Positions 3,277 to 19,502 of a DNA stretch of 64,000 nucleotides are shown here, one piece after another; positions within the stretch are counted from its first letter, which is position 1, and each line of letters opens with the position of its first letter. The notes beneath the pieces are model-generated. The model was given only the letters and a program-made list of their open reading frames with translations, was not told where the DNA came from and searched no databases. Source of the stretch: Micromonospora sp. CP22 (GTDB lineage: Bacteria; Actinomycetota; Actinomycetes; Mycobacteriales; Micromonosporaceae); assembly GCF_009712475.1 (NCBI RefSeq), contig NZ_VCJO01000008.1:1-64000 (forward strand). Direction: 5' to 3'. The translations under genes were made by a program, and so were the position numbers.

Positions 3277-3640
3277 TCAGGTTGGAAAAGTCTCACGGGT
3301 GCGGCATCGAGTTGGCGAACAGATTATCGATGTCGAAGCACAGTTTCGAAACGCCCCTTCTCCGTGGTGTGTTCCGGGGAGGCCGTCGAGATCCTGCGCG
3401 TCGAAGTCGCATTCCCACGGCAGTGACACGTGTTCCAGGTCAACTGCGGTGACCCGCTCACCAAATCGACTGCCGGTGAGTACCTGTACGCGATGACCGC
3501 AGCGGCGGAGTTCGGTTGCGACGGGCAGTAGTGCTGCCAGGTGCCCGATGATCGGCGAGCCGGAAGCCCTGGTAGAAGTGCAGGTGAGCGCACTGCCAAT
3601 CGCTGAGACTGCGGGATTCGCGATACGAGCATGCTGAATT
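3277..3640 (-). pseudogene. N-terminal fragment of a GT-B (UGT/macrolide-type) glycosyltransferase
   Basis: Read on the minus strand, positions 3561 to 3280 encode GSPIIGHLAALLPVATELRR followed by CGHRVQVLTGSRFGERV and LEHVSLPWECDFD. This is the N-terminal Rossmann half of UDP/dTDP-sugar-dependent glycosyltransferases (pattern GHxxPxLPLAxxLRRRGHxVxVLTG). The likely start, MLVSRIPQS, near 3632 is in a different frame, and the reading ends at a stop at 3277-3279 after about 95 residues. The gene is therefore both frameshifted and truncated before its sugar-donor domain. It abuts the transposase remnant, which suggests the insertion cut it. Such enzymes usually decorate polyketides, so it may be debris from another natural-product cluster. 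Confidence 0.65.
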
Positions 3641-4215
3641 GCCTCGTTCCGGTGCCAGTGACGACCATCTGTGCGGGTGTGCTCTTCATGCCTTTTTCGT
3701 GTGATCTACATGGGCGTGTATGCAGATCTAACCTGTTGCCTCGCTGGCGGCTGCTGGTAGCGTCGAGAACTGTTCCGCCGAAAACCGACAAGTTATGGCG
3801 ATGGGTCCGCGCCGATCTGCTCGGCTCGCGGTTTGTTTCTGGAGACGGACTGTGTCGCGTCGATATGTAACTGCGGATATGTCCCGGGAAGAAGTGGCGA
3901 GGACATCGTTTTCATCCCCGCCTGCTGTTCCAGCCGGACCGTGCCGGGAATCGCCGCACGCTGCGTGCCGCGGCTGCGGACCGGCCGAGATCGACAGGCG
4001 CTTGAGTCGACTGCCGCCGGGTGCCCGACCTCGGCGGGACCGGCTGCGTCGCGGCCGGTCTGTGTGTCCCCGACCTCGCGCCAACGGGCCGCCCGCCCAC
4101 CGGGCCGAGTCGAGACGCGGCCGCGCGCCCACCACACCTGCGGCTCGTCGGCGCGGTCCCAGCCGGCGCGGGCCAGTACCGCCGGAGTCCAGAGTCGTCA
4201 CAGGAAGAGGATGAG
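3641..4215. other. Intergenic region ahead of the biosynthetic cluster
   Basis: No gene supported on either strand; the open frames are short, shift often and lack ribosome binding sites. The promoter for the plus-strand hydrolase/polyketide operon should lie here, but I see no convincing -35/-10 pair. Confidence 0.4.
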
Positions 4216-5082
4216 ATGTCGAATTTCGAGAGTCTGTCCCGGCTGGACCTCTCCTACCCGGAGGATGTCCAACGCATCCGTACCCGGGCGGACGTAGAGC
4301 TCTATTACGAGGTCCGCGGCGAGGGTACCCCGATCACGCTGCTGAACCACTTCCTGATGAGCGCCCCGCTGTGGCGGGTGTTCACCGAGGATCTGGCGCG
4401 TAGCTATCGCCTGATCAGCTACGACCTGTGCAACCACGGTGCCTCCTCGCACGTGGCCGAGGAACCGACCTGGGCCGAGCACGTCGACGACCTGGTCGCG
4501 TTGCTCGACGCCCTCGAAATCGAGTCGACGTACCTGATCGCGGCGTCGGCCTCCACCGTGCTGGCCCGGGACATGGCGCTGACGCACCCGGACCGGGTCA
4601 AGGGCATGGTGCTGGCCGGTCCGGTCTACGGACCCAAGGGCATGCGGCGCCAGCGGCAGTTGCAGCGGGCCTGGCTGCGGACCATCGAGAGCCACGGCAT
4701 CGTGGGCTTCTACGAGCACCTCTACCCGGAGCTGTTCAGCGCCGAGATGAACGAGGCGCTCGGCACCCCCGGCTTCCTCGGCCTGCGCGAGGCCTTCACC
4801 GCGGTCACCACCCTCGAGGACCTGGTCAACGGGCTGAACCGGTCACTCGTCGACGACCACAAGCCGGAGCAGGCGGCGGCCGTCCAGGCGCCGACGCTGA
4901 TCGTGGTCGGCGACGACGATCTGCTGCTGAGCCCGACCGGTGCCCGGGAACTGGCCGAGCAGTTCCCCAACGGCAGCTACGAGATCATGCCGCGCGCCGG
5001 TCACCAGCCCTTCCTCGACGACGCCCCGGGATTCCAGGCGATCGTCCGCAAGTTCGTCGACGAGGTGCAGTCGCGCGCCTGA
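4216..5082 (+). CDS. Alpha/beta hydrolase with an atypical nucleophile elbow
   Basis: 288 residues from the ATG at 4216, preceded by GGAAGAGG. The alpha/beta-hydrolase core is clear: LISYDLCNHGASS, IAASASTVLARDMA for the nucleophile turn, VVGDDDLLLSP for the acid strand and RAGHQPFLDD with the catalytic His. The elbow reads A-A-S-A-S where most members have G-x-S-x-G, so the Ser is present but both flanking glycines are replaced. It is the first gene of the plus-strand operon, 31 bases before the polyketide synthase. It could release, edit or cyclise the polyketide-derived product; a non-hydrolytic role is possible given the elbow. The family call is firm; the role is inferred from position. 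Confidence 0.85.
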   Translation: MSNFESLSRLDLSYPEDVQRIRTRADVELYYEVRGEGTPITLLNHFLMSAPLWRVFTEDLARSYRLISYDLCNHGASSHVAEEPTWAEHVDDLVALLDALEIESTYLIAASASTVLARDMALTHPDRVKGMVLAGPVYGPKGMRRQRQLQRAWLRTIESHGIVGFYEHLYPELFSAEMNEALGTPGFLGLREAFTAVTTLEDLVNGLNRSLVDDHKPEQAAAVQAPTLIVVGDDDLLLSPTGARELAEQFPNGSYEIMPRAGHQPFLDDAPGFQAIVRKFVDEVQSRA

Positions 5083-5113
5083 GGTGACAACCACTCATTG
5101 ATGAGGAGGAACC

Positions 5114-8100
5114 GTGGCGGATCCTGGAGACATCGCGGTGATCGGCATGGCCTGCCGGTTCCCCGGTGGTATCGATTCCCCGGAAAGTCTGTGGAACCTG
5201 ATCGCGAACGGCGGCGACGTGATCACCGAGATTCCCGCGGACCGATGGGACGCGGATGAGCACTATGACGCCGAGCAGGGGGTGCCGGGCCGTTCGGTGT
5301 CGCGCTGGGGCGGCTTCCTGACCGACGCCGGAGGCTTCGACGCGAAGTTCTTCAAGATCGCCGAGCGGGAGGCGCTCGCCACCGACCCGCAGCACCGGGT
5401 CCTGCTGGAGACCGCCTGGGAGGCGGTCGAACGATCCGGAACACCGCCGTCCGCGCTCGCCGGCACCCGCACCGGCGTCTTCGTCGGCATCGCCCACGGC
5501 GACTACTCGGTGGTCACCCACGGGGTACGGAAGATCCACCCGTACTGGTTCACCGGCACCGCCTTCAGCATGGCCTCCGGGCGGATCTCGTTCGCGTTGG
5601 ACCTGGCCGGTCCGTCGCTGAGCGTCGACACGGCCTGCTCCTCGGGCCTGACCTCGGTGCACCAGGCGTGCATGAGCATCCGCTCCGGCGAGAGCGACAT
5701 GGCCCTGGCCGGTGGCGTCATGCTGATGCTGATCCCGGAGCCCGCAGCCGGCGCGTCCGGGCTCGGCATGCTGTCCCGCAGCGGCAGGTGCCGGCCCTTC
5801 GACAGGTCCGCCGACGGCTTCGTCCGGGCGGAGGGCTGCGGCATGGTGTTCCTGAAGCGGGCGACCGACGCGTTGGCCGACGGCGACCACATCCTGGCGG
5901 TGATCAAGGGCATCGCGACGAACCAGGACGGTCACACCGAAACCATCACCATGCCGTCGCAGGTCGCGCAGGCCGCGGTGCACCGGGCCGCGCTGGCCGA
6001 CGCCGGGATCACCCCGGAGCAGGTCGGGATGGTGCAGGCGCACGGCACGGGCACGCCCGTCGGTGACCCGATCGAGTTCCGCGCCCTGGCCGAGGTCTAC
6101 GGCCAGGGCGCCAGCCCCTGCGCGGTGACCTCCGTCAAGTCGAATCTCGGTCACACCGAGTCGGCCGCCGGCACCGCCGGGCTGATCGCCACCGTGCTGG
6201 CGTTGCAGCATGGCGTCGTACCCGGGACGCTGCACCTCGAGGAGCTCAACCCCGAGATCAGCGCGTTGAACACCCGGCTCTTCGTGCCCGGCAAGTCGAC
6301 GCCGTGGCCGGACGTTCCCGGGCCCCGGCGAGCGGGCGTCTCCTCGTTCGGCATGTCCGGCACCAACGTCCACGCCGTGGTCGAGGAAGCGCCCCGGACT
6401 CGGCCGGTCGCGGACAACCGGTCGCGGCGATCCGCTGCGCAGCTGGTTCCGCTGTCGGCCAGCGCGCCGGAGGAACTGGGCCCGACCGCCGAGCGGATAG
6501 CGGACTGGCTGGCCGTCCACGAGGACGTCACCCTCGCCGATCTCGGATACACCCTGGCACGGCGGCGCGAGCACCGCGCGTTCCGTACCGCCGTGATCGC
6601 TTCGGACCGGCCGGAACTGATCGCCGCGCTGCGCGGCGTGGCCGACCAGGTGGCCGAGCGGCCCCCGGCACCGGTGGTCGGTGACGACTCGCGCGGCCCG
6701 GTCTGGGTCTTCTCCGGCCAGGGTTCGCAGTGGGCCGGCATGGGTGCCGCGCTCCTGGCGACCGAGCCCGAGTTCGCCGCCATGGTCGCCCGGGTGGAGC
6801 CGCTCATCCAGCGCGAGTCGGGCTTCTCGGTGACGGCCGCGATGACCGACCCGGAGACGGTGACCGGCATCGACCGGGTGCAGCCGACGCTCTTCGCCAT
6901 GCAGGTAGGGCTCGCCGCAGCCTGGCGTGCGGCGGGCGTGCGACCAGCCGCCGTCATCGGGCACTCGCTGGGCGAGGTGGCGGCCTCCGTGGTGTCCGGT
7001 GCGCTCTCCCTCGACGACGGCGTCAAGGTGATCTGCCGTCGGTCCCGGCTGTGCGCCCGACTGGCCGGTGCCGGCGCGATGGCCTCCGTCGAACTTCCCG
7101 CCGAACGCGTCGAGCAGGAGCTGGCCGCCTACGACGACGTCGTGGTGTCGGTCGTCGCCTCACCGGAGTCCACGGTGATCGGTGGCGCCACCGACCGGGT
7201 CCGGGAACTGATCGCGGCGTGGGAGAGCCGGGGCGTGATGGCACGCGAGGTCGCCGTCGACGTCGCCTCGCACTCGCCGCAGGTGGACCCGATCCTGGCC
7301 GAGCTGGCCGAAGTCCTCGCCGACCTCACGCCGGCCGCCGGGACGGTGCCCGTCTACGGCACCGCGCTCGACGACCCGCACACGCAGCCGGTCCCCGACG
7401 CCGCCTACTGGGTCGACAACCTGCGCCAGCCGGTCCGGTTCGGCGCTGCGGTGCTGGCCGCGCTCGAGGACGGTCACCGCGTCTTCCTGGAGCTGTCCCC
7501 GCACCCGCTGCTCACCCGGGCGGTGGAACAGTGCGCCCGGTCGTCCGGGCTGCCCGCAGCCGCCCTGCCGAGTATGCGGCGCGGCCAGGAGACCCCGTAC
7601 GGCCTGCTCACCAGCCTGATCGAGGTGCATGCGGCCGGTGGCGGGGTCGACTTCTCGCTGCTGCATCCGGACGGTGACCTCGTCGACGCGCCACTGCCCA
7701 CCTGGGCACGCCAGCACCTGCTGGTCCGGTCCGACCAGTCCCCGCCAGCACACACGGTACGGGTGCATCCGCTGCTCGGCGCGCATGTCCGGCTCGATGA
7801 GAGCCCGGAGAGGCACGCCTGGCAGTCCGACGTCGGTACGGCGGTGCTGCCGTGGCTTGTCGACCACCGGGTCGGTGACGTTGCCGCCTACCCCGGCTCG
7901 GCGCACTGCGAGGCGGCGCTCAGCGCGGCCGGAGAGGTCTTCGGTGGCGGGGGCGAGGTGCACGGGCTGCGCTTCGAACGCATGCTGCTGCTCAGCGACC
8001 ATGACGAGGTCACCGCGTCCGCCACGGTGACCGCGCCGGGCCAGGCCCGGTGGGAGGCGACCACGTCGGACAACGGCGAACGGGTCCGGCTGGCCTCCGC

Positions 8101-11100
8101 CACGCTGCACCCGTCAGCGGACGTCGCCGAACCCGAGCCGATCGACATCGACCTGCTCCTCGACGAGCATTCCGATCCGTTGCCGGGGGACGAGCTGCGG
8201 CGGATCGTCGGTGAGCGGGGCATCCAACCCGGACCGGCGTTCGCCGGTGTCACCACCGTCCACCGCCTGCCTGGCCCGGACGGACGGACCGTGCTCGGTG
8301 AGGTCGAGCTGCCGTCCGCGCTGCGCAGCGGAAACGACGGTTTCGGTATCCACCCGGCGCTGCTGGACGCCTGCTTCCAGTGCGTGATCGCGATGCCTGC
8401 GGTGGCGCAGGAGGTGGCGGACGGCGGCCTGATGGTCCCGCTGGAGGTAGGACGGATCCGCCAGTGGGCACCGTCCGCCGCCGCACGGTACTGCCATCTG
8501 CGACTGGTGTCCCACGACAGCACCCGGGTGGTCGCTGACATCCAGCTGACCGATCGCTACGGCGCTGTCCTGCTGACCGTGGAGGGCCTGGTCATGGGCA
8601 CCAGCGGCAGCGACGAGGAGAGTGCCGGGCAGATCCTGGCCGAGCGGCTGCTCACCGTGGGCTGGCACCGCACCGACCCGCCGCGACCCGCCGAGAGCCG
8701 GTCCGACGACTCGTGGCTGATCCTCGCGCCGGACGCGGCGGTCTGCGAGCCGGGCGAGCTCGCCACGGCCCTGCGCGGGCAGGGCGGCAAGGCCGAAGTC
8801 CGTCCGTGGTCGTCCGACGGCACTGCGCCCCTCGTGCCGGAGGGCACCTGGCGTGGCGTCGTGCTGCTCTGCCCACGACCGGCCGGACCTGCCGATGAGG
8901 ACGGCATCGCCCGCGGCCGCGACCTGGTGCAGGCGGTTGTCGGGGTCGCGCAGGAACTCGCCGCGTTCGGTGGCACACCGCCCCGGCTCTACGCGGTCAC
9001 CCAGTCCGCACAGCAGGTCCTGACCGGCGACGTGGTCAACCTCGAACACGCCGGGGTACGCGGCCTGCTGCGCGTGATCGGCGCCGAGTTCCCCGATGTC
9101 CGGGCCACCCAGATCGACGTCGACGAGGCGGTGGTCGAGGCGCTCGCCGCCGAACTCGCCGCCGACAGCCCCGAGGACGAGACCGCCTGGCGCGCCGGGC
9201 ACCACTACACCGCCCGGCTCGAGCGGGCCCCGCTCGCCGTCGGGGAACGGCACCGAACGGTCATCGACCCCGATGCCGACGGTTACCGGCTGGAGATCCG
9301 CCACCCGGGCGACCTGGACTCGCTGGAGCTGGCCGTCGTCGCGCGCCGTAGCCCCGGCCCGGGCGAGATCGAGATCGCGATCGGCGCCGGCGGCATCAAC
9401 TTCGTCGACGTACTGGTGGCGCACGGCAACGGCTTCAGCTACGAGGGGGAGATCCCCGGCTTGGGCGTGGACTGTGCCGGGACCGTGGTCCGGGTCGGCG
9501 ACGAGGTCACCGGGTTCGCGGTCGGCGATCGGGTGATGACCGCCGTCGGTGTCACCGACGGCGCGTGGGGGAGCCACGTCACTGTCGACGCCCGGCTCGC
9601 CGCCCCGCTGCCGTCCGGGCTGAGCATCGAGGAGGGGGCGGCGACCCCTGCGGTCTACGCCACCGCCTGGTACGCCCTGCACGAGCTGGCCCGGCTACGG
9701 CCCGGCGAGCGCGTCCTCATCCACTCGGCCACCGGTGGCACCGGGCAGGCCGCGGTTGCCATCGCCCGCCGGATCGGCGCGGAGATCTTCGCGACCGCCG
9801 GCAGCGCGGACCGCCGGGAATGGCTGCGCTCGACAGGTATCACGCACGTCTACGACTCCCGCAGCCTGGAGTTCGCCGACCAGATCCGCGAGGACACCGG
9901 CGGTGCGGGCGTCGATGTGGTGCTGAACTCGCTCACCGGCGCGGCGCAGCGGGCGAGCCTGGATCTGCTGACCTTCGGCGGCAGGTTCGTCGAGATCGGC
10001 AAACGTGACATCTACGGCGACTCCCGGCTGGACCTTGCCCCGTTCCGGCGCAACCTGGCCTTCTACAGCGTCGATCTGGAGCTGATGGCAGGTGTTGATC
10101 CGGGACTGCTCGGTCGGCTGCTCCGCGAGGTGGCGGAGCTGATGAGCCGCGGCGAGCTGCCGGCACCGATGGTCACCGCGTTTCCGCTGAGTGAGGCGGC
10201 GACCGCGATCCGGACCATGGCGGCGGCCCAGCACACCGGCAAGTTCGTGCTCACCACAGCGGTCGAGTCCGGAACGCCTGTGGTGGTGCCGCCGGACCGG
10301 TTCCCGGCGTTCCGCGCCGACGGCGCGTACCTCATCACCGGCGGACTGGGCGGCCTCGGTCTGCGGCTGGCCCGGCACCTCGCCGAGGCGGGCTGCGGCC
10401 GGATCGTGCTGAACTCGCGGTCCGCGCCGAACGCCGAGGCGGCCGCGGCGATCGCCGCGCTACGCGAGGCCGGGGCCGACGTTCAGGTGGAACTGGGCGA
10501 CATCGCGGACCCGGGCACCGCGGTCCGGCTGGCCGCCGCCGCCCGGGCCACCGGGCTGCCCCTGCGTGGGGTGCTGCACGCCGCGGCGGTGGTCGAGGAC
10601 GCCACAGTGCCGAGCATCACCGCCGAGTTGGTGCACCGGGACTGGGCGCCCAAGACGTACGGGGCCTGGCATCTGCACCACGCCACGATCGACGACGACC
10701 TGGACTGGTTCTGCTGCTTCTCGTCGGCCGCCGCGCTGCTCGGGTCCCCGGGTCAGGGCGCCTACGCCGCCGCGAACAGCTGGCTGGACGGGTTCGCGCA
10801 CTGGCGGCGCGCGCAGGGGTTGCCGGTGACCGCGATCGCGTGGGGCGCCTGGGCTGAGATCGGCCGCGGCGCGGTTCTCAGCGAATCCGGTGACACCACG
10901 ATGATCACGCCTGACGAGGGGGTCCGCGCCTTCGACACCCTGCTGCGGCACACCAGGACCTTCACCGGGTACGTCCCGCAGTCCCGGGCGCCGTGGCTGA
11001 CCTCGCTCGCCCGCCGCAGTCCGTTCGCGGCGGCGTTCCAGGACAGCCAGCCAGCGCAGTCGCAGTCGTCGGCGTTGCTCAGCGAAGTGCGGGCACTGCC

Positions 11101-11353
11101 GGCCGGTGAGCGGGTCGGCTGGCTGAGCAAGTTCCTGGCCCGGGAGGCCGGCGCGATCGTCCGTGGGAATGTCGACCCCGGCCGGCCGTTCCACGACTAC
11201 GGTCTGGACTCACTCGGCAATCTGGAGCTGCGGACCAGGGTCGAGACCAGCCTGGGTATCCGGGTCGCCCCCAAGGCGATCGCCACCAACAACTCGGCCC
11301 GGGCGCTGGCCCAGCACCTGGCCGAGCTGCTCGGCGAGCAGGAGGCGCGGTGA
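5114..11353 (+). CDS. MAS-like type I reducing polyketide synthase (KS-AT-DH-ER-KR-ACP)
   Basis: 2079 residues from the GTG at 5114 behind GAGGAGGA. Domains in order: KS (about 5-430; Cys175 in DTACSSG, His in QAHGTGTPVGD and NLGHTESAAG); AT (about 535-830; Ser618 in GHSLGEVAAS, specificity motif VASHSPQVD); DH (about 885-1165; His918 in DHRVGDVAAYP, Asp1085 in LLDACFQ); ER (about 1395-1715; HSATGGTGQAAVAIA); KR (about 1735-1905; TGGLGGLGLRLA, GAYAAAN); ACP (Ser2033 in YGLDSLGNLE). The order, the size and the VASH motif match mycocerosic acid synthase-like enzymes, which are iterative and use methylmalonyl-CoA. All catalytic residues are present, so a fully reduced, methyl-branched chain is expected. 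No loading module or thioesterase is attached; release is probably by the overlapping reductase gene. Methylmalonyl specificity is inferred from the motif. Confidence 0.93.
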   Translation: MADPGDIAVIGMACRFPGGIDSPESLWNLIANGGDVITEIPADRWDADEHYDAEQGVPGRSVSRWGGFLTDAGGFDAKFFKIAEREALATDPQHRVLLETAWEAVERSGTPPSALAGTRTGVFVGIAHGDYSVVTHGVRKIHPYWFTGTAFSMASGRISFALDLAGPSLSVDTACSSGLTSVHQACMSIRSGESDMALAGGVMLMLIPEPAAGASGLGMLSRSGRCRPFDRSADGFVRAEGCGMVFLKRATDALADGDHILAVIKGIATNQDGHTETITMPSQVAQAAVHRAALADAGITPEQVGMVQAHGTGTPVGDPIEFRALAEVYGQGASPCAVTSVKSNLGHTESAAGTAGLIATVLALQHGVVPGTLHLEELNPEISALNTRLFVPGKSTPWPDVPGPRRAGVSSFGMSGTNVHAVVEEAPRTRPVADNRSRRSAAQLVPLSASAPEELGPTAERIADWLAVHEDVTLADLGYTLARRREHRAFRTAVIASDRPELIAALRGVADQVAERPPAPVVGDDSRGPVWVFSGQGSQWAGMGAALLATEPEFAAMVARVEPLIQRESGFSVTAAMTDPETVTGIDRVQPTLFAMQVGLAAAWRAAGVRPAAVIGHSLGEVAASVVSGALSLDDGVKVICRRSRLCARLAGAGAMASVELPAERVEQELAAYDDVVVSVVASPESTVIGGATDRVRELIAAWESRGVMAREVAVDVASHSPQVDPILAELAEVLADLTPAAGTVPVYGTALDDPHTQPVPDAAYWVDNLRQPVRFGAAVLAALEDGHRVFLELSPHPLLTRAVEQCARSSGLPAAALPSMRRGQETPYGLLTSLIEVHAAGGGVDFSLLHPDGDLVDAPLPTWARQHLLVRSDQSPPAHTVRVHPLLGAHVRLDESPERHAWQSDVGTAVLPWLVDHRVGDVAAYPGSAHCEAALSAAGEVFGGGGEVHGLRFERMLLLSDHDEVTASATVTAPGQARWEATTSDNGERVRLASATLHPSADVAEPEPIDIDLLLDEHSDPLPGDELRRIVGERGIQPGPAFAGVTTVHRLPGPDGRTVLGEVELPSALRSGNDGFGIHPALLDACFQCVIAMPAVAQEVADGGLMVPLEVGRIRQWAPSAAARYCHLRLVSHDSTRVVADIQLTDRYGAVLLTVEGLVMGTSGSDEESAGQILAERLLTVGWHRTDPPRPAESRSDDSWLILAPDAAVCEPGELATALRGQGGKAEVRPWSSDGTAPLVPEGTWRGVVLLCPRPAGPADEDGIARGRDLVQAVVGVAQELAAFGGTPPRLYAVTQSAQQVLTGDVVNLEHAGVRGLLRVIGAEFPDVRATQIDVDEAVVEALAAELAADSPEDETAWRAGHHYTARLERAPLAVGERHRTVIDPDADGYRLEIRHPGDLDSLELAVVARRSPGPGEIEIAIGAGGINFVDVLVAHGNGFSYEGEIPGLGVDCAGTVVRVGDEVTGFAVGDRVMTAVGVTDGAWGSHVTVDARLAAPLPSGLSIEEGAATPAVYATAWYALHELARLRPGERVLIHSATGGTGQAAVAIARRIGAEIFATAGSADRREWLRSTGITHVYDSRSLEFADQIREDTGGAGVDVVLNSLTGAAQRASLDLLTFGGRFVEIGKRDIYGDSRLDLAPFRRNLAFYSVDLELMAGVDPGLLGRLLREVAELMSRGELPAPMVTAFPLSEAATAIRTMAAAQHTGKFVLTTAVESGTPVVVPPDRFPAFRADGAYLITGGLGGLGLRLARHLAEAGCGRIVLNSRSAPNAEAAAAIAALREAGADVQVELGDIADPGTAVRLAAAARATGLPLRGVLHAAAVVEDATVPSITAELVHRDWAPKTYGAWHLHHATIDDDLDWFCCFSSAAALLGSPGQGAYAAANSWLDGFAHWRRAQGLPVTAIAWGAWAEIGRGAVLSESGDTTMITPDEGVRAFDTLLRHTRTFTGYVPQSRAPWLTSLARRSPFAAAFQDSQPAQSQSSALLSEVRALPAGERVGWLSKFLAREAGAIVRGNVDPGRPFHDYGLDSLGNLELRTRVETSLGIRVAPKAIATNNSARALAQHLAELLGEQEAR

Positions 11354-12465
11354 CGGCGATCCTGTTGACCGGGGTGACGGGGTCCCTCGGCGGCCATCTC
11401 GCCGCGGCGCTGCTCGCCCAGCCACACCCGGTGATCTACTGCCTGGTCCGGGCGACCGGACCGGCGGCGGCCGATCGCCGGCTGCGGGAGCGGATGGCAG
11501 AGGTCGGCGTGGACGATCCGCAGCGTCTGATCGCGGTGCCGGCCGACCTGGATCGTCCCGGTCTCGGCATGCCACCGAAGGTCTGGAACGACCTGGCCGA
11601 ACGGGTCTCGCGGATCTATCACAGCGCCGCGTCCGTGCACATGACCGCGCCGTACCACGATCTGGCACCGTCGAATGTGGGCGGAACCAGGGCGCTCGTG
11701 GAACTGGCCACGGCCGCCGGTCGGCCGGTCGGCTTCCACTTCGTCTCCACGATCGCGGTGTTCGCCGATGCGGCCAGGGCCGGACTGTCCCGGGTGGACG
11801 AGATGACCCCGCCGTCGATGGCGACGTCCGGGCACCTCGGCTACCCGCGATCGAAGGTGGCCGCCGAACGGGTCGTCACCCGGGCCGCCGAGCGTGGCGT
11901 GACGGCCACGATCTATCGGCCGGGTCTGGTGACCGGGCATTCCGGCACCGGTGGCACCTCCACGTCCGACCTGCTCATGCCGCTGCTGAGGGCGGCCGTC
12001 GCGGTCGGGGCGGTACCCGAGCGGGTCGAGGCGGTGCCGATGGACGCTGTCGATCAGGTCGCCGGCAACCTGGCCCGGCTGTCCGTCGGGCCGTCGGCCG
12101 CCGGGCGGGCGTATCACCTGGTGAAGCCGCAGCCGGTGGCGCTCACCCATGGATTCGACGCGCTGCGCCGGGCGGGGTATCCGCTGGACTCCCTGCCCGG
12201 CCCGGTCTGGTGGGAACGGGCGACCGAACGGGCCACCCATCCGGACGTGGCACCGCTGATTCAGATGGGGAAGATCGGGCGGCGGATGCTGGGCCTGGAG
12301 CCGGCGTATCCGATGCCGGAGATCAGCGCGGAGCACACCTGGGCGGCCCTGCGCGCTGCGGAGCCGGCGCCGCCGTCGGTGCCGCTGGACGACGCGTTCT
12401 TCGACCGCCTCATCGCGTACGGCTTCAGCCAGGCGATCCGGGAGCGGCCGATCCTGACCCGCTGA
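11350..12465 (+). CDS. Stand-alone thioester reductase-like NAD(P)-dependent protein
   Basis: 371 residues, starting at a GTG that overlaps the polyketide synthase stop (GTGA at 11350-11353), so the two are translationally coupled. The N-terminus has the Rossmann motif LLTGVTGSLGGHL. IYHSAASVHMTAPY, FHFVSTIAVF and the Tyr165/Lys169 pair in YPRSKVAAE follow; these are hallmarks of extended SDR thioester reductases (NAD_binding_4 type) that release carrier-bound chains as aldehydes or alcohols. The C-terminal part (YHLVKPQPVALTHGFDALRRAGYPL) fits the same family. Usually such domains are fused to the synthase; here one is separate. The likely substrate is the acyl chain on the synthase ACP. Whether it makes one or two reductions cannot be told from sequence. 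Confidence 0.9.
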   Translation: MTAILLTGVTGSLGGHLAAALLAQPHPVIYCLVRATGPAAADRRLRERMAEVGVDDPQRLIAVPADLDRPGLGMPPKVWNDLAERVSRIYHSAASVHMTAPYHDLAPSNVGGTRALVELATAAGRPVGFHFVSTIAVFADAARAGLSRVDEMTPPSMATSGHLGYPRSKVAAERVVTRAAERGVTATIYRPGLVTGHSGTGGTSTSDLLMPLLRAAVAVGAVPERVEAVPMDAVDQVAGNLARLSVGPSAAGRAYHLVKPQPVALTHGFDALRRAGYPLDSLPGPVWWERATERATHPDVAPLIQMGKIGRRMLGLEPAYPMPEISAEHTWAALRAAEPAPPSVPLDDAFFDRLIAYGFSQAIRERPILTR

Positions 12466-12473
12466 GGACCCCG

Positions 12474-12512
12474 CGGAACCAGGCCCCGTGCATCTCGCGG
12501 GGCCTGGTTCCG
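12474..12512 (+). terminator. Perfect 15-bp-stem terminator of the polyketide operon
   Basis: CGGAACCAGGCCCCG at 12474-12488 pairs perfectly with CGGGGCCTGGTTCCG at 12498-12512 around a 9-base loop, nine bases after the reductase stop. There is no clear T tract, which is common in high-GC actinomycetes. Confidence 0.8.
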
Positions 12513-12578
12513 TTGCCGGGATCCGTACCGGCGGAGACCACTGTGCCCGGGGGTTCGTCGTCGAACCCCGCGACGAGC

Positions 12579-12610
12579 CTCAGGCGCCCCACAGTCGTGG
12601 AGCGCCTGAG
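12579..12610 (-). terminator. 14-bp-stem hairpin ending the minus-strand operon
   Basis: CTCAGGCGCCCCAC at 12579-12592 pairs with GTGGAGCGCCTGAG at 12597-12610, with one G-T type mismatch and a 4-base loop, 17 bases beyond the adenylation gene stop. A smaller 8-bp hairpin (12550-12569, GGGGTTCG/CGAACCCC) lies between it and the plus-strand terminator, so the two converging operons are well insulated. Confidence 0.7.
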
Positions 12611-12626
12611 GTGGTGGTGCCGAGGA

Positions 12627-14207
12627 TCAGCTCGTGGTCGTCAGCGAGGCGGCCTGCGCCACGAGCGCCTTCCGGTCGATCTTGCCGTTGAGGCTCAGCG
12701 GAAGCTTCGCCACGTGCACCAGGAAACGCGGGGTCATGTACGTGGGCAGCCGCCCCGCCAGGAAGTCCCGCAACTCCGGATCGGAGACGGCCTCCCCGGT
12801 GAAGAACCCGGCCAGCTCCACGATGCCGTCGTCGGCCGGGCAGGGCACCACGGCGGCCTCTTCCAGGCCAGGGTGCGCCCGCAGGGCCGCCTCGATGTCA
12901 CCCGGCTCGATCCGGTAGCCGTGCACCTTCACCTGGTTGTCGACACGTCCCAGGTAGACCGCCACTGCGTCGTCGAACCGGACCCGGTCACCGGTGCGGT
13001 ACCAGTGCCGCTCGTCCGGTCGTCCGGGACCGTCGTGGGTGCCGAGGAGTTCACCGTCCCACAGCACGAACCGGCCACGGTTGTGCGCGGGATCCAGATA
13101 TCCGTCGAACCGCTGCGGGCCACGGACCAGCAGCTCACCCTCGTCGGCGGCGGTGCCGTCATCGTCGAGTACCACGTATTCGACGGTGGGGTAGACCCGC
13201 CCGATCGGGACGGTGCCGTTCGGCGTGGCCGGCTGCTCGGTCGGATCCTGGGGCAGCAGGTGGGTCAGGCAGGTCACCGTCGCCTCGCTGGGTCCGTACA
13301 CGTTGGCCACCGCGCTGTTCGGTGCGGCCTCCCGCCAGGCCCGTACGTGCTCGGGCGTCAGCGCCTCACCGCCGAAGATGCTCCACCGCAGGTCCGGCAG
13401 CCCGCCGGTGGTCAGGTCGCCCAGCCACCTGGCCATGGTGACCGATGCCGGCGTCGAGACCCAGTGCGTGATGCCCTGCCCGGCGATGAACTTCGCCGGG
13501 GCGAGCAGGTCCGTCTTCGTCGGCACCACCACCGTCCCACCGGACGCCCACGCGGTCCACAGCGGGATCATCGACATGTCCCAGGACAGGTCGGCCGTCT
13601 GGGCGACCCGGGCACCGGCGCGGTCGGCGAACATCGGCACGAAGTGCCCGACCCAGGCGGCGAAGTTGCGGTGCCGGATCGGCACGCCCTTCGGGCTGCC
13701 GGTCGACCCGGACGTGAAGATGATGTAGGCCAGGTCATCGACGTCCGGGGTGCCGGCCTCGACGGACGGGCCGTCACCGGTGAAGGTGGCGGCGTCGTCC
13801 GGCATCGACAGCAGCCGGACGCCGGTGGCGGCCCGCACCTGCGCGGCGAGTTCCCGCTCGGCGTCGGCGTGCACAAGCACGTCCAGCCCGGCCAGCCGGG
13901 CGATCTCCGCGTTGCGGACCGGCGGGAACTCGGTGTTGAGACAGATCACCGTGTCACCCAGCCGCAGGCTGGCCAGGTAGGCGACATAGGTGGCCGCCAC
14001 CGTCCGGGAGGCGAGGACACCGATCCGGCGCGGGGGACGCCCGGTCCGGTCTCCTGCCGTCCCGGCGATGGCGGCGGCGGCCCGGCCCGCGGCCGCATCG
14101 AGTTCGGCGTACGTGAAGTCGGCACCGGCCACGCTCAGGGCGGTGCGGGTGGGGTGGGCGCGTACGGTGGCGCCGAACCACTCGTACATCGCCGGAGTCG
14201 GGCTCAC
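12627..14207 (-). CDS. Free-standing amino-acid adenylation enzyme (NRPS A domain)
   Basis: 526 residues, starting at a GTG that overlaps the carrier-protein stop. Core adenylation motifs are all present: A3 IIFTSGSTGSPKGVPIRH, A5 NVYGPSEATVTCL, A7 WYRTGDRV, A8 GRVDNQVKVHGYRIEPGDIE, and the A10 lysine in LNGKIDRKALV. The A4 region reads SWDMSMIPLW; its Asp occupies the place of the residue that binds the substrate amino group in amino-acid-activating domains, so an amino acid rather than a fatty acid is likely. It should form an aminoacyl-AMP and load the adjacent carrier protein. Discrete adenylation enzymes of this kind load beta-amino acids in macrolactam pathways. The exact substrate is not readable by eye. 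Confidence 0.92.
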   Translation of the reverse strand: MSPTPAMYEWFGATVRAHPTRTALSVAGADFTYAELDAAAGRAAAAIAGTAGDRTGRPPRRIGVLASRTVAATYVAYLASLRLGDTVICLNTEFPPVRNAEIARLAGLDVLVHADAERELAAQVRAATGVRLLSMPDDAATFTGDGPSVEAGTPDVDDLAYIIFTSGSTGSPKGVPIRHRNFAAWVGHFVPMFADRAGARVAQTADLSWDMSMIPLWTAWASGGTVVVPTKTDLLAPAKFIAGQGITHWVSTPASVTMARWLGDLTTGGLPDLRWSIFGGEALTPEHVRAWREAAPNSAVANVYGPSEATVTCLTHLLPQDPTEQPATPNGTVPIGRVYPTVEYVVLDDDGTAADEGELLVRGPQRFDGYLDPAHNRGRFVLWDGELLGTHDGPGRPDERHWYRTGDRVRFDDAVAVYLGRVDNQVKVHGYRIEPGDIEAALRAHPGLEEAAVVPCPADDGIVELAGFFTGEAVSDPELRDFLAGRLPTYMTPRFLVHVAKLPLSLNGKIDRKALVAQAASLTTTS

Positions 14208-14452
14208 GGGTCACGCCTGCCGTCGGCCTGCTCGGCGAACACTGTGTAGATGCCGCGTACCGTGCGCTCCTCGAAGAGCGTGCCGACCTCCGGACGGCGG
14301 CCGGCGTGCTGCTCCATCGCCACGAACAGCCGCACCCGGTGCAGCGACCGCCAGTTCACCTCCTGATCGAAGCTGTTCTCCAGATCCGGATCGGCCAGCG
14401 GCAGCCGCAGTTCGTCGCGGACGATGCGGATGAACTCAGCCTGCCCGATCAC
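14204..14452 (-). CDS. Discrete acyl/peptidyl carrier protein
   Basis: 82 residues from a GTG that overlaps the KAS III stop; its own stop overlaps the adenylation start (GTGA both times). The fold pattern is that of a carrier protein: FDQEVNWRSLHRVRLFVAMEQ aligns with the usual D-S-L helix, with Ser in WRSLH as the probable phosphopantetheine site. The usual Gly and Asp before the Ser are Trp and Arg here, which is unusual. It is expected to carry the aminoacyl group made by the adenylation enzyme and to present it to the KAS III-like protein. A pantetheinyl transferase is not encoded in the window. Confidence 0.8.
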   Translation of the reverse strand: MIGQAEFIRIVRDELRLPLADPDLENSFDQEVNWRSLHRVRLFVAMEQHAGRRPEVGTLFEERTVRGIYTVFAEQADGRRDP

Positions 14453-15483
14453 TCCGGGAGCTCCGCAGTGATCTCGATAACCGCGGCGCTGAACATGAAG
14501 CCGGTGCCCGAGCCGGCGAGCACGACCCGGTCGCCGGGCTTGGCCTTCCGGGCCTCCAGCAGGTGGGTCAGCCCGGCGAACTGGTCGCCCGCGCCCAGGT
14601 GCCCACAGCGGCGGCCCCAGTCCCAGGTGGTACGGGAGATGTCAATACCGAACGCCTTGCGCGCGTCCCAGTCGGTGAGTGCCAGCCCCTGGTTCGGGAA
14701 GATCCACCAGGCGACGTCCGTGGGCTCCAACCCGGCCTCGGCCAACGCCTGCTCGATGACGAGCATCTCCTTCTGCTGCAACGCCTGCACCATGGGGACG
14801 TAGATCTCGGGGCCCTTCTCGGCCAGATAGGCGTGCACCCGGGCGTTGATGTTCACCGGCCAGCCGTTCCCGCCGCTCACGTCGCTCCACGGCTCCGCGC
14901 CGATCTGGATGTCGCCGTAGGTGGTGTCGCCGGTGGTCGCGCTGCTCACCAGCCGGGCGATTCCTGAGGACCGGCAGAGCAGCAGCGCGGTGCCGCCGTC
15001 GCCGAAGAGCATCCCGGAGGCGGTGGCGTAGCGGTTGTAGCCGGGCTCCACGAACCGGTCGGCGGTGGTGAGCAGCGCCGCGGAGGTGTCCGGTCGGGCA
15101 GTCAGATAACCCGCCGCCAGCTCCAGGGCGGCCATGCCGCCGTTAGACGCCTGGCGCATTTCCACGGCGAAGCCGTCGCCGCGGACGGTGCGGCCCTGGA
15201 TGTACGCGGCCGGTGCGAAGTCGTCCAGGCCCTGGTGCGCGATGTAGGAGTGGACCACCAGGTCGACCTGCGAGGCCCGGTCACCGGCACGGGCCACCGC
15301 CGCTGCCGCCGCTCGCACCGCCAGGTCGATGGTGGGTCCCTCGTCGTCCACCCGGGTGGCGAGGAAGCCGCTCGCCTCATTCTCCTTCGCCGCGTAACGC
15401 CCGTCGGCCACGGCGCTCTCGGTGGTCTCCTCACGACCCAGAGTCATTGCCACGGACCCGATGTAAAGGTCATTCCAAAGCAC
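14449..15483 (-). CDS. KAS III-like acyltransferase with Ser in place of the catalytic Cys
   Basis: 344 residues from a GTG at 15483 behind GGGGAGG. It has the thiolase-fold layout of 3-oxoacyl-ACP synthase III, but the nucleophile position reads VEMRQASNGGMAALELA: Ser113 where condensing enzymes have Cys. The usual H-Q-A-N motif is FPNQGLAL and the usual Asn motif is CGHLGAGDQFAGL, with His295 and Asp300. That G-H-L-G-A-G-D-Q pattern is what I recall from CerJ/ChlB-type members, which transfer acyl groups to oxygen or nitrogen rather than condensing; DpsC is a known member with Ser. The likely job is to move the carrier-bound aminoacyl group onto an acceptor such as the polyketide-derived alcohol. 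The acyltransferase role is inferred. Confidence 0.85.
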   Translation of the reverse strand: MLWNDLYIGSVAMTLGREETTESAVADGRYAAKENEASGFLATRVDDEGPTIDLAVRAAAAAVARAGDRASQVDLVVHSYIAHQGLDDFAPAAYIQGRTVRGDGFAVEMRQASNGGMAALELAAGYLTARPDTSAALLTTADRFVEPGYNRYATASGMLFGDGGTALLLCRSSGIARLVSSATTGDTTYGDIQIGAEPWSDVSGGNGWPVNINARVHAYLAEKGPEIYVPMVQALQQKEMLVIEQALAEAGLEPTDVAWWIFPNQGLALTDWDARKAFGIDISRTTWDWGRRCGHLGAGDQFAGLTHLLEARKAKPGDRVVLAGSGTGFMFSAAVIEITAELPE

Positions 15484-15514
15484 TGTGCGCCTCCCCTTGT
15501 GTCGAAATTCGAGG

Positions 15515-16594
15515 TCAGTCCTCGCCGTCGTTGTAGACCACGTCGAGCGTTCCGGCGGAGTTGACAGTGGCCGTGGCCGGCAGCCGGTAGGAAGGGCTCC
15601 AACGCAGCCGATCCTCGAGCCGGTACGACGTCCGGAGCGTCAACTTCCGGCCGTTCTTCGCAACGATGCTGCCCTCGTAGGGGGTGACTTTTCCGATGTC
15701 GGTCATCACGGTGAACATCGGTTTCGCCAGGCCGCTGAGATACCCGCTGCCGGAGATTTCCGAGGCGAGCCGCAGCCCTTTCGCCACGGTCGTACGGAAC
15801 TCGTCCGTGCCCACCATCGGAACTGCGTGGAAGAGGTAGTGCGGGATGAACCGCAGCGTCCGCTGCCGGTCGTAGAGCTCGATGAGCGTCTCGGCCTCGT
15901 CATTGACGCCCTTGAGCAGGACGTTCTGGCTGTAGAGACGCACGCCCCGCTGCTGCAGGGCGCCGAATACCTCGACCGCCTCCGGCTGCAACTCGAACGG
16001 ATGGTTGACCTGCACACCGATCTCGAACTGGAAACGGTCGGCGAACTCCTCGAACACCCGGTAGGTGTCCGCGGTGAACGCGCCCGGGTTCTGCACCGGC
16101 AGCCGGGTGCCCATCCGGACGGTGATGATGTTCTCCGCGCTGGTGGCCACCGCGGCCAGCAGCTCGTTGAGCTTGCGCGGCGAGATCAGGGGGTCTCCGC
16201 CGGTGATCAGGATCTCGCGCAGGTCCTCGTCACGCTTCAGGAAGTCCGCGATGGCGCCGATCTGATCCGTGCCCAAGGTGTGCGGATCGTAGAGGCCGCG
16301 GACGCAGAACACGCACTCGCTGGCACAGGCGGAGAGCATGTCGATGACGACGACCCGTCGGTAGAGGCGCTCCAGGCCCTTGGGAAAGTCACTCGACATG
16401 ACCGCGTCGAAGTGCCGCGTGTTGTTGCCGAAACTCGGGCCGGTCGACGGCATTCGGAAATACTGGTTGTAGATGCCGCGATAGGCGCCGGAATTCTCCC
16501 CGTGCTGCTTTTTCGCGCGTTCCAGCAGCTCCTGCGTGTACTTGTGAACCCGAGGCTTCTGTGTTTCGGTGATTACTCGGAGAAGTCCAGCCAT
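15515..16594 (-). CDS. KamA-family radical SAM aminomutase-like enzyme
   Basis: 359 residues from an ATG at 16594 with AAGGGA upstream. The iron-sulfur motif is ACASECVFC (Cys90, Cys94, Cys97), followed by LITGGDPLIS, QVNHPFE and NVLLKGVND, all typical of the lysine 2,3-aminomutase family. Lys302 in VMTDIGK lies where the PLP lysine sits, but the usual glycine-rich PGGGGK is reduced to TDIGK. The Q-C-D-L segment is HAVP and the Asp before the PLP loop is also missing; in KamA these two Asp residues bind the lysine side-chain amine, so lysine is an unlikely substrate. The length is shorter than KamA (about 416). It probably converts an alpha- to a beta-amino acid for the downstream adenylation enzyme, and heads that operon. 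Confidence 0.88.
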   Translation of the reverse strand: MAGLLRVITETQKPRVHKYTQELLERAKKQHGENSGAYRGIYNQYFRMPSTGPSFGNNTRHFDAVMSSDFPKGLERLYRRVVVIDMLSACASECVFCVRGLYDPHTLGTDQIGAIADFLKRDEDLREILITGGDPLISPRKLNELLAAVATSAENIITVRMGTRLPVQNPGAFTADTYRVFEEFADRFQFEIGVQVNHPFELQPEAVEVFGALQQRGVRLYSQNVLLKGVNDEAETLIELYDRQRTLRFIPHYLFHAVPMVGTDEFRTTVAKGLRLASEISGSGYLSGLAKPMFTVMTDIGKVTPYEGSIVAKNGRKLTLRTSYRLEDRLRWSPSYRLPATATVNSAGTLDVVYNDGED

Positions 16595-16833
16595 GGTCGG
16601 TCATCCCTTACCCTAATGATGCCAACGAAAAAGCGCTTGGCATGCCGCATCAAGGACTGGTACCCGCCTGCGAGATCACGGGATCAAGTGCTGCCTTCGC
16701 GGTCGGTCACGAATATCCCGCCGAACGTTTCCGGGTCGCCGGAACGCTTCCGAGGTTACCAACCGCGATCCGGGCCGCAATCGACGTTCTTCATGACTGG
16801 ATGTGAATTTCGCATCCGTGGTGGGGGCGGATC

Positions 16834-17457
16834 TCAGCTTTCGGCCCGGTCGATCTGTTGAGCGACGCCGTCGATGAAGACCTGCAGGCCGTAGCGGAAC
16901 CGTTCCCCCGGATCGGCGCCGGTGAGCGCGGCCAGCGCGGCCGAGTGGTGCGTCGACATCTCGGCGTCGAGCTTCTCGATGCGTTGACGCCAGGTGTCAC
17001 CCGCCGGGAGTTCGGCCAGCGCCTGCTCCTCGATCACGTGGCCGAGCACGTAGTAGAAGAGGGCGAAGGCGAGCCACCCGGCCTGGGCGGGCGCCAGGCC
17101 GGCGGTGCAGAGTGCGGTGATCGCGCGGTCGGCGCCGCGCATCGTGTTCAGGCCGGGAGCGAAGGTGCCGCCCACCACCCGGGCACCGTCCCGGTGTGCC
17201 AGCATCGCCGACCGCATCCGGTCACCGAGGACGTACAGCTGCCGGCGCCAGTCGGCCTCCGGCAGCGGATCGCCGAGCCCGTCGACGATCCGGTCCGCCA
17301 GGGCATCGAGCAACGCCTCCTTGTTCGGAAAATGCCGGTAGAGGGCGCTGCCCTGGACATTGAGCGCGGCGCCGAGCCGGCGCATCGTCAGCCCGTCGAT
17401 CCCCTCGGCGTCCAGCAGCTTCAACGCGCCGTCGACCACGTCAGCCTTGCGCAGCAC
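16834..17457 (-). CDS. TetR-family repressor of the adjacent exporter
   Basis: 207 residues from a GTG at 17457, six bases after GAGGAG. The N-terminal HTH (LTMRRLGAALNVQGSALYRHFPNKEALLDAL) is typical TetR/AcrR; the C-terminal part (VVGGTFAPGLN, FYYVLGHVIEEQAL) resembles the tetracycline-repressor ligand domain. It is divergent from the DHA2 exporter, with a 25-bp palindrome in the 126-base gap. By analogy with TetR/TetA, it should repress both genes until the exported compound binds. It ends 240 bases before the aminomutase gene on the same strand, so it could also read through into the biosynthetic operon, but no evidence shows this. Confidence 0.9.
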   Translation of the reverse strand: MLRKADVVDGALKLLDAEGIDGLTMRRLGAALNVQGSALYRHFPNKEALLDALADRIVDGLGDPLPEADWRRQLYVLGDRMRSAMLAHRDGARVVGGTFAPGLNTMRGADRAITALCTAGLAPAQAGWLAFALFYYVLGHVIEEQALAELPAGDTWRQRIEKLDAEMSTHHSAALAALTGADPGERFRYGLQVFIDGVAQQIDRAES

Positions 17458-17473
17458 CCGTCGCTCCTCTGGT

Positions 17474-17529
17474 TTGACAACGACTTGCGGTCATTCCTAG
17501 CATCAACACCGTTCACCGTGAACGGTGTT
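17474..17529 (+). promoter_or_regulatory. Promoter and TetR operator between repressor and exporter
   Basis: TTGACA (17474-17479) and TAGCAT (17498-17503), 18 bases apart, form a good promoter reading towards the exporter. Directly after it lies a near-perfect palindrome, 17505-17529: AACACCGTTCAC, one central C, then GTGAACGGTGTT. On the minus strand TTCACG within the palindrome and TAGGAA 17 bases further on could serve the repressor gene. One bound repressor dimer would therefore block both promoters. Confidence 0.8.
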
Positions 17530-17583
17530 AACGTCGGCCTCATCCAGTTCCCGTGCGTGATTCTGGACCAGTGAGGAGATCAC

Positions 17584-19020
17584 ATGCTCGACTCCCGAAC
17601 CGGCCTGGCACCCCGCGGCGTCGTGCGGCCCAACCTGCCGCTCGGCGTCGTCGTGGCGATCTCCTGCCTGGCCCAGTTCACAGTCGTGCTCGACGCCACG
17701 ATCGTCACGCTCGCGCTGCCCGACATGCGTGCCAGCCTCGACATGTCGGTCAGCCAGCAGCAGTGGGTGGTCAGTGGATACCTCATCGCCTTCGGCGGTT
17801 TCCTGCTGCTGGCGGCCCGGGCCGGTGACCTGTTCGGTTACCGGCGGGTCTTCCTGACCGGCACGGTGATCTTCACCCTGGCCAGCCTCGCCGGTGGACT
17901 CGCCACCAGCCCCTGGATGCTCCTGGTGGCCCGCGTCTTCCAGGGCCTCGGCGCTGCGGCCCTGTCACCCACCAGCCTCAACCTGATCACCGCCAGCCAC
18001 AGCGACGAGGACCGTCGCGAGCGAGCCGTCACGCTGTGGAGCCTGATGGGCGCCCTCTCCAGCGTCGCCGGGCTCATCCTCGGCGGCGTCCTGACCGCCG
18101 GGCTGAGCTGGCACTGGGTCATGTTCGTGAACGTCCCGCCCGGCCTCATCCTGCTCGTCGCCGGCCTGCTCTGGCTGCTGCCTGACCGCGACACCGGCGA
18201 ACGCCGTCGCCTGGACCTCCCGGGTGCGCTCACGGCGACCCTCGGCATCGGTGCCCTGACCTACGGCTTCTCCGAGGTCGCCACCGACGGCTGGACCGAG
18301 ACGAACGTGCTGGTCGCCCTGATCGCCGCCGCCGTGCTGCTGATCGGCTTCGTGGCCGTGGAGGCGAAGAGCCGTCATCCGCTGATTCCGCTGGCCATCT
18401 TCCGCCTCCGCACCGTCAGCATCGGAAACTTCCTGATCTTCTGCATGGGTGTCACGATGACGGCCGGGATGGTCCTGCTCTCCCTGTACTTCCAGGAGGC
18501 GCTCGACTACGACCCGTTCAGCACGGGTCTCTCGCTGCTCCCGATGTCCGCCATCGTGATCGCCGGTGGTCTCGGTGCCCGCCAGCTCCTGCCCAAGGTC
18601 GGCACCCGACCGCTCCTGCTCGCCGGCGGTCTCGTCACGGCCGTGGGCCTGCTCTGGATGACCAGGATGCCGGCGGAGCCGGCCTACCTGACCCACGTCC
18701 TGGGCCCCACCCTGGTGACCGGCCTCGGCATGAGCCTGCTGCTGCCTGCGGCGACGGTGACCAGCACCACCGGTGTGGCACCCGGCGATGACGGCGCAGC
18801 GTCCGGTCTGCTCAACACCTCGCGCCAGATCGGCGGGGCGGTCGGTCTGGCCGTCCTGGTCACCATCGCCACCACGACCACTGAGCGGGCCCTGCCTGAC
18901 ACGACGCCAGTCGAGGCCGTCGTGGACGGATTCCACGCCGCCTTCCTGGTCAACGCCGCTGTGATGCTGGCGGCCACCTTCGTGGCACTAGCCCTGCCGA
19001 GGTCCGGGCGACAGTCCTGA
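17584..19020 (+). CDS. DHA2-family MFS multidrug/metabolite exporter, 14 membrane spans
   Basis: 478 residues from the ATG at 17584 with GAGGAG upstream. The first span carries LDATIVTLALPDM, a signature of the EmrB/QacA (DHA2) group, followed by QWVVSGYLIAFGGFLLLAARAGDLFGYRR, which contains the conserved loop between spans 2 and 3. The hydrophobic profile fits 14 spans in the cytoplasmic membrane and proton-driven efflux. Its position behind a TetR gene with a shared operator and next to the biosynthetic genes suggests that it exports the cluster's product and gives self-resistance. The substrate is inferred from context only. Confidence 0.92.
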   Translation: MLDSRTGLAPRGVVRPNLPLGVVVAISCLAQFTVVLDATIVTLALPDMRASLDMSVSQQQWVVSGYLIAFGGFLLLAARAGDLFGYRRVFLTGTVIFTLASLAGGLATSPWMLLVARVFQGLGAAALSPTSLNLITASHSDEDRRERAVTLWSLMGALSSVAGLILGGVLTAGLSWHWVMFVNVPPGLILLVAGLLWLLPDRDTGERRRLDLPGALTATLGIGALTYGFSEVATDGWTETNVLVALIAAAVLLIGFVAVEAKSRHPLIPLAIFRLRTVSIGNFLIFCMGVTMTAGMVLLSLYFQEALDYDPFSTGLSLLPMSAIVIAGGLGARQLLPKVGTRPLLLAGGLVTAVGLLWMTRMPAEPAYLTHVLGPTLVTGLGMSLLLPAATVTSTTGVAPGDDGAASGLLNTSRQIGGAVGLAVLVTIATTTTERALPDTTPVEAVVDGFHAAFLVNAAVMLAATFVALALPRSGRQS

Positions 19021-19502
19021 CACCGGGTGCCAGTCGGGCCGCGAGACGGACACGACCGACGCCGGTGGCCGGTCGGCCGGTCCGGTGGTGACTCCTCCTG
19101 GTCGATAGTGACGCCCCCGACGGCGAGGCGCTCGGCGGCCAGCAGCGCGGCGAACCTGTCGTCGGCGGTGGCGTCCGGCAACCGGCCCAGCGCCAGCGCT
19201 GCCGGGGCGGCGTCGCCCACGGCCGACGCGTCGGTCCACATCGCGTGGGCCTTCCGCAGGGGCGGCGCGGGCCCGGTCCGGGTCGATCTCCGCAGCGGCG
19301 CGCAGCTCCAGCGCCCGGCCAGGTCGGCCCGCAGCCCTCCGGCCCGGGCCAGAGGGGCGGTCGTGCCGATGCGGTCGAGTTGGCCCGGACCGAGGCTGCG
19401 GGTGACCTGGCTGTGACCAGGTCTGACCCACCGGGGTCCGGGGCACGCGGCAGGGCAGCGCGCGGGTTCGCCTGAGAACGCGGTCTCGGCGGACGGCCGT
19501 CG
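19021..19502. other. Gap with a possible decayed coding remnant
   Basis: No complete gene. On the minus strand around 19240-19100 a stretch reads MWTDASAVGDAAPAALALGR and onward without stops, and neighbouring frames show similar Ala/Leu-rich stretches, which looks like a decayed gene crossing frames. I do not recognise it. No clear terminator hairpin for the exporter was found. Confidence 0.3.

Follow-up and report, generated by a model that had tools for sequence, protein, structure and literature searches.

Gene content and organization

The analyzed DNA (further referred to as the window) is a stretch of 64,000 nucleotides from the 5.85-Mb genome of the soil bacterium Micromonospora sp. 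CP22. Gene calling and scans with protein family models revealed a set of nine genes at positions 4216–19020; all genes, domains and gene overlaps that an earlier note had described here from the letters alone are present. Three genes on the plus strand encode an alpha/beta hydrolase (ABH, 4216–5082), a single-module fully reducing type I polyketide synthase (PKS, 5114–11353) and a free-standing thioester reductase (TR, 11350–12465, overlapping the PKS gene by 4 nt). They converge on a minus-strand operon that encodes, in this order, a radical SAM 2,3-aminomutase-like enzyme (AM, 15515–16594), a KAS III-like acyltransferase or starter enzyme (KS3, 14449–15483), a small free carrier protein (CP, 14204–14452) and a free-standing amino-acid adenylation enzyme (A, 12627–14207), with 4-nt overlaps between KS3 and CP and between CP and A. 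The set is completed by a divergent pair, a TetR-family regulator (16834–17457, minus strand; PF02909 and PF00440) and an MFS exporter of the DHA2/EmrB type (17584–19020, plus strand; TIGR00711, 253.7 bits with the cut-off 230.2).

The ABH gene starts with the ATG at 4216, which is preceded by GGAAGAGGATGAG; conservation with Micromonospora andamanensis and Saccharopolyspora kobensis begins at about this point. Of the terminators noticed earlier, the hairpins stand: the 160-nt gap between the convergent operons (12466–12626) folds strongly (fold z −7.7). However, a scan of this gap for U-tract intrinsic terminators found none, and hence a terminator here is plausible rather than demonstrated.

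A perfect 25-bp palindrome is located between tetR and the MFS gene at 17505–17529. Its core GTTCACNGTGAAC (17511–17523) occurs in exact form once in the window, and is found at the same place, between tetR and the MFS gene, in M. andamanensis and S. kobensis. This core, GTTCACCGTGAAC, is a probable TetR operator, through which TetR would control export. A single operator for both arms of the cluster was considered and rejected, as the exact core is present only between tetR and the MFS gene and is absent upstream of AM.

Polyketide synthase, thioester reductase and hydrolase

The PKS has the Pfam domain order KS-AT-DH-ER-KR-ACP and passes the NCBIfam Pks2 model NF041183 along its full length (2757.8 bits, cut-off 2400), which places it in the MAS/Pks2 type. 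The motifs of the KS (VDTACSSG, AHGTGT, KSNLGHT) and the nucleotide motifs of the ER and KR are intact; the AT contains GHSLGE and VASH, the DH, DHRVGDVAAYP, and the ACP, GLDSL. The AT is nearest to the MAS-like KS-AT structure 5BP1 (455 bits) and to MAS itself, and its methylmalonyl motif VASH is identical to that in the MAS-type structures 5BP1 and 7AGP. MAS is an iterative enzyme, and PKSs of its type normally extend fatty acyl starters. No FAAL, FadD or other fatty-acid activating enzyme was found in the cluster.

The TR contains the GxxGxxG and YxxxK motifs and scores above the cut-off of TIGR01746 (229.1 bits, cut-off 213.35). The nearest solved structures are MxaA and 8v1x. MxaA is an alcohol-forming reductase, so it is the precedents among polyketide alkaloids discussed below that suggest the release of an aldehyde by this TR. 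Family scans of the cluster yielded no aminotransferase.

ABH (PF00561, 5e-20) may be an editing thioesterase or an esterase, and its best solved matches are esterases. The possibility that it is a VinJ-like deprotecting amidohydrolase was rejected, since no protein of the proline-iminopeptidase type occurs among its 60 best solved matches.

Aminomutase

The only solved relative of AM found by sequence is lysine 2,3-aminomutase (LAM; 2A5H), with further matches to the KamA/LAM family. AM retains the CxxxCxxC motif (C90, C94, C97) and, in the alignment to LAM, the carboxylate-binding Arg position (R99). K302 is the likely PLP lysine, the alignment being locally uncertain at this point. In contrast, the two residues expected of a lysine 2,3-aminomutase, Asp293 and Asp330 of LAM, which we take to bind the ammonium group of the lysine side chain, align with V258 and M297, both invariant in five homologues. 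With Val and Met at these positions, the AM substrate is probably uncharged. Further, the adenylation pocket described below suggests that it is probably aliphatic. The predicted structure of AM had low confidence (pLDDT 54) and was rejected as a basis for a fold search.

AM, and with it the gene set, is rare: AM is present in two of 160 Micromonospora species and, at high identity, in three of 201 genomes of the family. Among 84,980 species genomes scanned, it was found at at least four loci, which is a lower bound, as the scan used two conserved peptides and may have left out the records of the window's own genome. These loci belong to M. andamanensis (99% identity), S. kobensis (80%), Streptomyces netropsis (78%) and Paractinoplanes durhamensis (64%). 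In S. netropsis (L034:9842-16074) the homologue is followed by two genes of ATP-grasp/L-amino-acid ligases and an MFS gene, so AM is not tied to a PKS. In P. durhamensis (L035) it is adjacent to PhyH, ADH and NRPS genes (A-KR-PCP and C-A). Given these different partners, AM appears to be a portable supplier of amino acids. The S. netropsis locus looks like a cluster for a β-amino-acid dipeptide, and is uncharacterised. One more homologue (59%, genome G401) comes from a contig of 11 kb that also encodes transposases and a WelO5-like oxygenase, and is uninformative.

Adenylation enzyme and carrier protein

The best full-length free-standing solved matches of A (PF00501, 1e-61) are VinM (8K4R, 277 bits) and IdnL7 (6AKD, 246 bits), whereas matches to β-amino-acid enzymes of the HitB, IdnL1 and CmiS6 type score only 119–129 bits. 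Thus, the single A enzyme of the cluster is not of the HitB/VinN type. Both VinM and IdnL7 belong to pathways in which a β-amino acid primes a PKS (PMC11284099, PMC11253843). They act on small L-α-amino acids, and VinM caps the β-aminoacyl-ACP (PMC11284099). The pocket of A, read by eye from the alignments to IdnL7 and VinM, consists of Asp210, Met211, Gly279, Val303 and Thr312. Met211 and Gly279 correspond to Cys217 and Ala285 of IdnL7, the small-residue pocket conserved in VinM-type enzymes (PMC11253843). Given its best matches, A seems to derive from the starter-unit toolkit, its exact step being either loading of CP or capping.

The earlier assignment of the gene at 14204–14452 to a free carrier protein stands in part. 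The PF00550 score of CP is below the gathering cut-off (17.1 vs. 20.8 bits), and the DSL motif reads NWRS[L/I], with Asp replaced by Arg. On the other hand, Ser36 is retained, and the S. kobensis protein, 68% identical, keeps both the Ser and the whole NWRS motif. The Arg in place of the Asp is thus found in two genera. A weak alignment links CP to an ACP with a solved structure; the predicted model has a helical topology at low confidence (pLDDT 53), and was likewise rejected as a basis for a fold search. A CP-like protein (53%) with the canonical WDSL is encoded in another cluster from Micromonosporaceae, together with KSIII-like genes, an MMPL transporter and an FAD oxidoreductase.

KAS III-like enzyme

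The solved relatives of KS3 are DpsC (the nearest, 204 bits), ChlB3 (172) and CerJ (153). Ser113, His295 and Asp300 align with the nucleophile, His and Asp positions of this family of acyltransferases and starter enzymes, to which both the matches and the three residues assign KS3. The nucleophile is Ser in KS3, as in DpsC, and Cys in CerJ and ChlB3. At the second His position the enzyme from the window has Asn264, as ChlB3 also appears to have, whereas the S. kobensis enzyme keeps His. ChlB3 moves 6-methylsalicylate between carriers, CerJ transfers malonyl to a sugar hydroxyl and is inactive as the C116S mutant, and DpsC, with Ser-His-His, is classed with the condensing starter enzymes (PMC9573744).

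In a tree of 33 sequences, KS3 of the window forms a clade with the enzymes from M. andamanensis and S. kobensis (support 100/99). A wider clade adds sequences from loci L005, L006, L052 and L065 (100/97), and DpsC belongs to another group (99/99). A nucleophilic Ser is common among members of the family, and by itself it is therefore no proof of starter loading. In a hybrid PKS/NRPS cluster on a plasmid of Streptomyces sp. BHT-5-2 (L049:11502-19442), a KS3 homologue (43%) adjoins genes for a VinM-like A enzyme (44%) and an isopropylmalate-synthase-like protein. At three other loci with KS3 homologues (L036 and L037, 47% and 45%, and L052), no homologue of CP, AM or TR is located nearby. At a further locus (L066, genome G261) a 50% homologue is located near genes of an adenylation enzyme, an aminotransferase and a radical SAM protein (24% identity to AM).

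Conservation of the gene set

The earlier note had proposed to check whether the two arms are conserved together, and both convergent operons are indeed retained in M. andamanensis and S. kobensis. The window shares a 15.5-kb block (positions 3553–19051) with M. andamanensis at a DNA identity of 97.0%; outside the block, in the 60 kb compared, only the esterase gene at 19480–20671 is shared, and in M. andamanensis it is located ~14 kb away. A transposase-type HTH fragment (PF13613, 2709–3170) is located beside the left edge of the block (3553). The first 4 kb of the window have a lower GC content (64%).

In S. kobensis each of the nine genes has an orthologue, and the convergent arrangement is the same: MFS on the minus strand, then TetR, AM, KS3, CP and A on the plus strand, facing TR, PKS, a luciferase-like F420 oxidoreductase and ABH on the minus strand. 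With the nine orthologues found together in a second order of Actinomycetes, the gene set is not a chance association. The identities equal 65% for ABH, 39% for PKS, 44% for TR, 66% for A, 68% for CP, 72% for KS3, 80% for AM, 65% for TetR and 69% for MFS. Compared with 65–80% for the other seven genes, the values for PKS and TR indicate either a much stronger divergence of these two or their exchange. The S. kobensis PKS has the same domain order; its identity of 39% is that over KS-AT, its score with NF041183 is 1072 bits vs. 2758 in Micromonospora, and its AT motif reads YAAH. Whichever history holds, a fully reducing one-module PKS and a TR stay with the priming genes, and the retention of both arms together, though the PKS differs, favors one pathway.

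The S. kobensis gene adjoining the PKS (L046:9228-11318) encodes a protein of 696 aa, in which a TR-like N-terminal half (25%; TIGR01746, 41 bits) is fused to an F420-type luciferase-like oxidoreductase (TIGR03617). This fusion has no counterpart in the Micromonospora cluster. The flanks of TR relatives (38–40%) in other Micromonosporaceae contain no other homologue of cluster genes except for a weak match to A.

Comparison with known pathways

The cluster resembles the vicenistatin, incednine and hitachimycin pathways, which combine a β-amino acid supplied by an (amino)mutase, a free VinM/IdnL7-like A enzyme, a free CP, a transfer enzyme and a type I PKS (PMC11284099). In the present cluster A is VinM-like, and CP is a less certain counterpart, with a weak PF00550 match and the Asp-to-Arg replacement at DSL. 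Unlike these pathways, the cluster has a KAS III-like transferase instead of VinK and no A enzyme of the HitB/VinN type, a single-module PKS instead of an assembly line, a TR instead of a macrolactamizing TE, and an AM that lacks the Lys-binding residues.

Argimycin P, coelimycin and cyclizidine are likewise released from a type I PKS by a TR, and here, as there, an amino-aldehyde or amine is expected to cyclize to an imine. In argimycin P and similar polyketide alkaloids, the TR-released aldehyde ends as a piperideine (PMC5820336). Their nitrogen is added to the released aldehyde by an aminotransferase (PMC5820336), whereas here the TR is present without an aminotransferase, and the nitrogen would arrive with the starter. 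The mycobacterial MAS/Pks2 loci resemble the cluster in the PKS family and the methylmalonyl-type AT motif, but the cluster has a TR and an aminoacyl arm and lacks FAAL/FadD, PapA and MmpL partners. KS3 shares with DpsC, ChlB3 and CerJ the family and the His/Asp pair; it differs from them by its own clade with S. kobensis, Asn264 and the predicted substrate, an aminoacyl-CP.

The single reactions are known, and their combination is new to the open-access literature searched, in which no description of this exact gene set was found. This is consistent with the earlier statement that no pathway with this set has been described.

Proposed pathway and alternatives

We give an even chance to a single pathway in which the β-amino acid is the starter unit of the PKS, and the amino-aldehyde released by TR closes to a cyclic imine. 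AM would shift the amino group from C2 to C3 of an uncharged, probably aliphatic, L-amino acid. A would activate the amino acid and load it onto CP, and KS3, with Ser113 as the nucleophile, would take over the aminoacyl group from CP and pass it to the MAS-type PKS, as ChlB3 moves an acyl group between carriers. The PKS would extend this starter with methylmalonate and full reduction, and reductive release by TR would yield a δ-amino aldehyde or a higher homologue. The free amine would then attack the aldehyde, and one round of extension would give a six-membered cyclic imine (3-methyl-6-alkyl-tetrahydropyridine). This ring has the same geometry as the six-membered lactam whose formation is favored by a free β-amino group after the first extension (reviewed in PMC11284099). 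ABH may hydrolyze stalled thioesters.

The starter role of the β-amino acid is suggested by the resemblance of KS3 and A to starter-unit enzymes (DpsC; VinM and IdnL7). In agreement with it, neighboring KS3 and A genes occur also in Streptomyces sp. BHT-5-2, and the cluster has no other starter-loading enzyme, such as FAAL. Such a pathway would account for each gene without an extra coupling enzyme. On the other hand, VinM-type enzymes aminoacylate the amine of a loaded β-aminoacyl carrier, and CerJ esterifies hydroxyls; given this chemistry and the lack of a loader of the HitB/VinN type, A and KS3 could serve amide formation. Moreover, several rounds on a MAS-type PKS would give longer chains, for which ring closure would not be easy.

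A single pathway joining a methyl-branching reducing PKS and a TR to a β-amino-acid arm had been proposed in the earlier note, and this part agrees with the operons staying together, the VASH motif of the AT, and the retained CxxxCxxC motif and Arg of AM. The suggested product, a lipid alcohol esterified or amidated with the β-amino acid, fared worse: the cluster has no wax-ester synthase, PapA or condensation domain, and KS3 and A are starter-like. In its full form, this scheme has PKS and TR convert a fatty starter into a methyl-branched lipid alcohol or aldehyde, to which KS3 then attaches the β-amino acid bound by A and CP through an ester or amide bond; it is unlikely. The usual fatty acyl starters of MAS-type PKSs, the transfer to a hydroxyl by CerJ of the KS3 family, and MxaA as the nearest solved TR speak for it. 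However, the KS3 nucleophile is Ser, as in DpsC, and not Cys, as in CerJ and ChlB3, with CerJ inactivated by the same replacement; the PKS would lack an enzyme activating its fatty acid. Besides, S. kobensis has a PKS that is not of the MAS kind, and what is conserved is therefore not a specific lipid arm.

We consider it rather improbable that A forms an amide as VinM does, attaching a second amino acid to the β-aminoacyl-CP, with KS3 handing this protected dipeptidyl group over to the PKS for later uncapping by ABH, as in vicenistatin, which would lead to a longer amino-polyketide or a macrocycle. A does score highest with VinM and IdnL7, and macrolactam pathways as a rule use an extra amino acid for protection (PMC11284099). 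Yet the cluster encodes neither a second adenylation enzyme that would load the β-amino acid nor a discrete acyltransferase of the VinK type, the Cys217/Ala285 pocket is replaced by Met211/Gly279, and ABH is esterase-like, the 60 best solved matches including no proline-iminopeptidase-type protein. Very unlikely is KS3 acting as a condensing enzyme, which would join the aminoacyl-CP and (methyl)malonyl-ACP with decarboxylation into a β-keto starter before the PKS: although the nearest solved relative DpsC is grouped with condensing starter enzymes with Ser-His-His, and S. kobensis KS3 has the second His, the window enzyme has Asn264 there, as the acyltransferase ChlB3 appears to have.

Returning to the starter-unit pathway, it is possible, and we suggest it only tentatively, that the cluster represents a minimal alkaloid pathway of a new kind. 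In it, a radical SAM aminomutase would act on an uncharged (aliphatic) amino acid, a DpsC-like KAS III enzyme would load the β-amino acid unprotected on a one-module PKS, and TR would produce a cyclic imine with the ring size set by the β position, the A-CP-KS3-AM cassette serving PKSs of different lineages. This would be a compact (~15 kb) route to branched piperideine-type alkaloids, with an aminomutase for an uncharged substrate and one natural priming cassette working on different PKSs, useful for engineering. The cluster would also offer an opportunity to test whether KAS III-like enzymes serve as aminoacyl starter transferases. Even if the details are wrong, these nine genes remain an orphan cluster whose conservation spans two orders of Actinomycetes.

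Other features of the window

In the right part of the window, an N6-DNA methylase gene (PF02384, 55746–57839) may belong to a restriction-modification system, and a Cas3 gene (HD and helicase, 60146–63004) is a sign of type I CRISPR-Cas at the right end.
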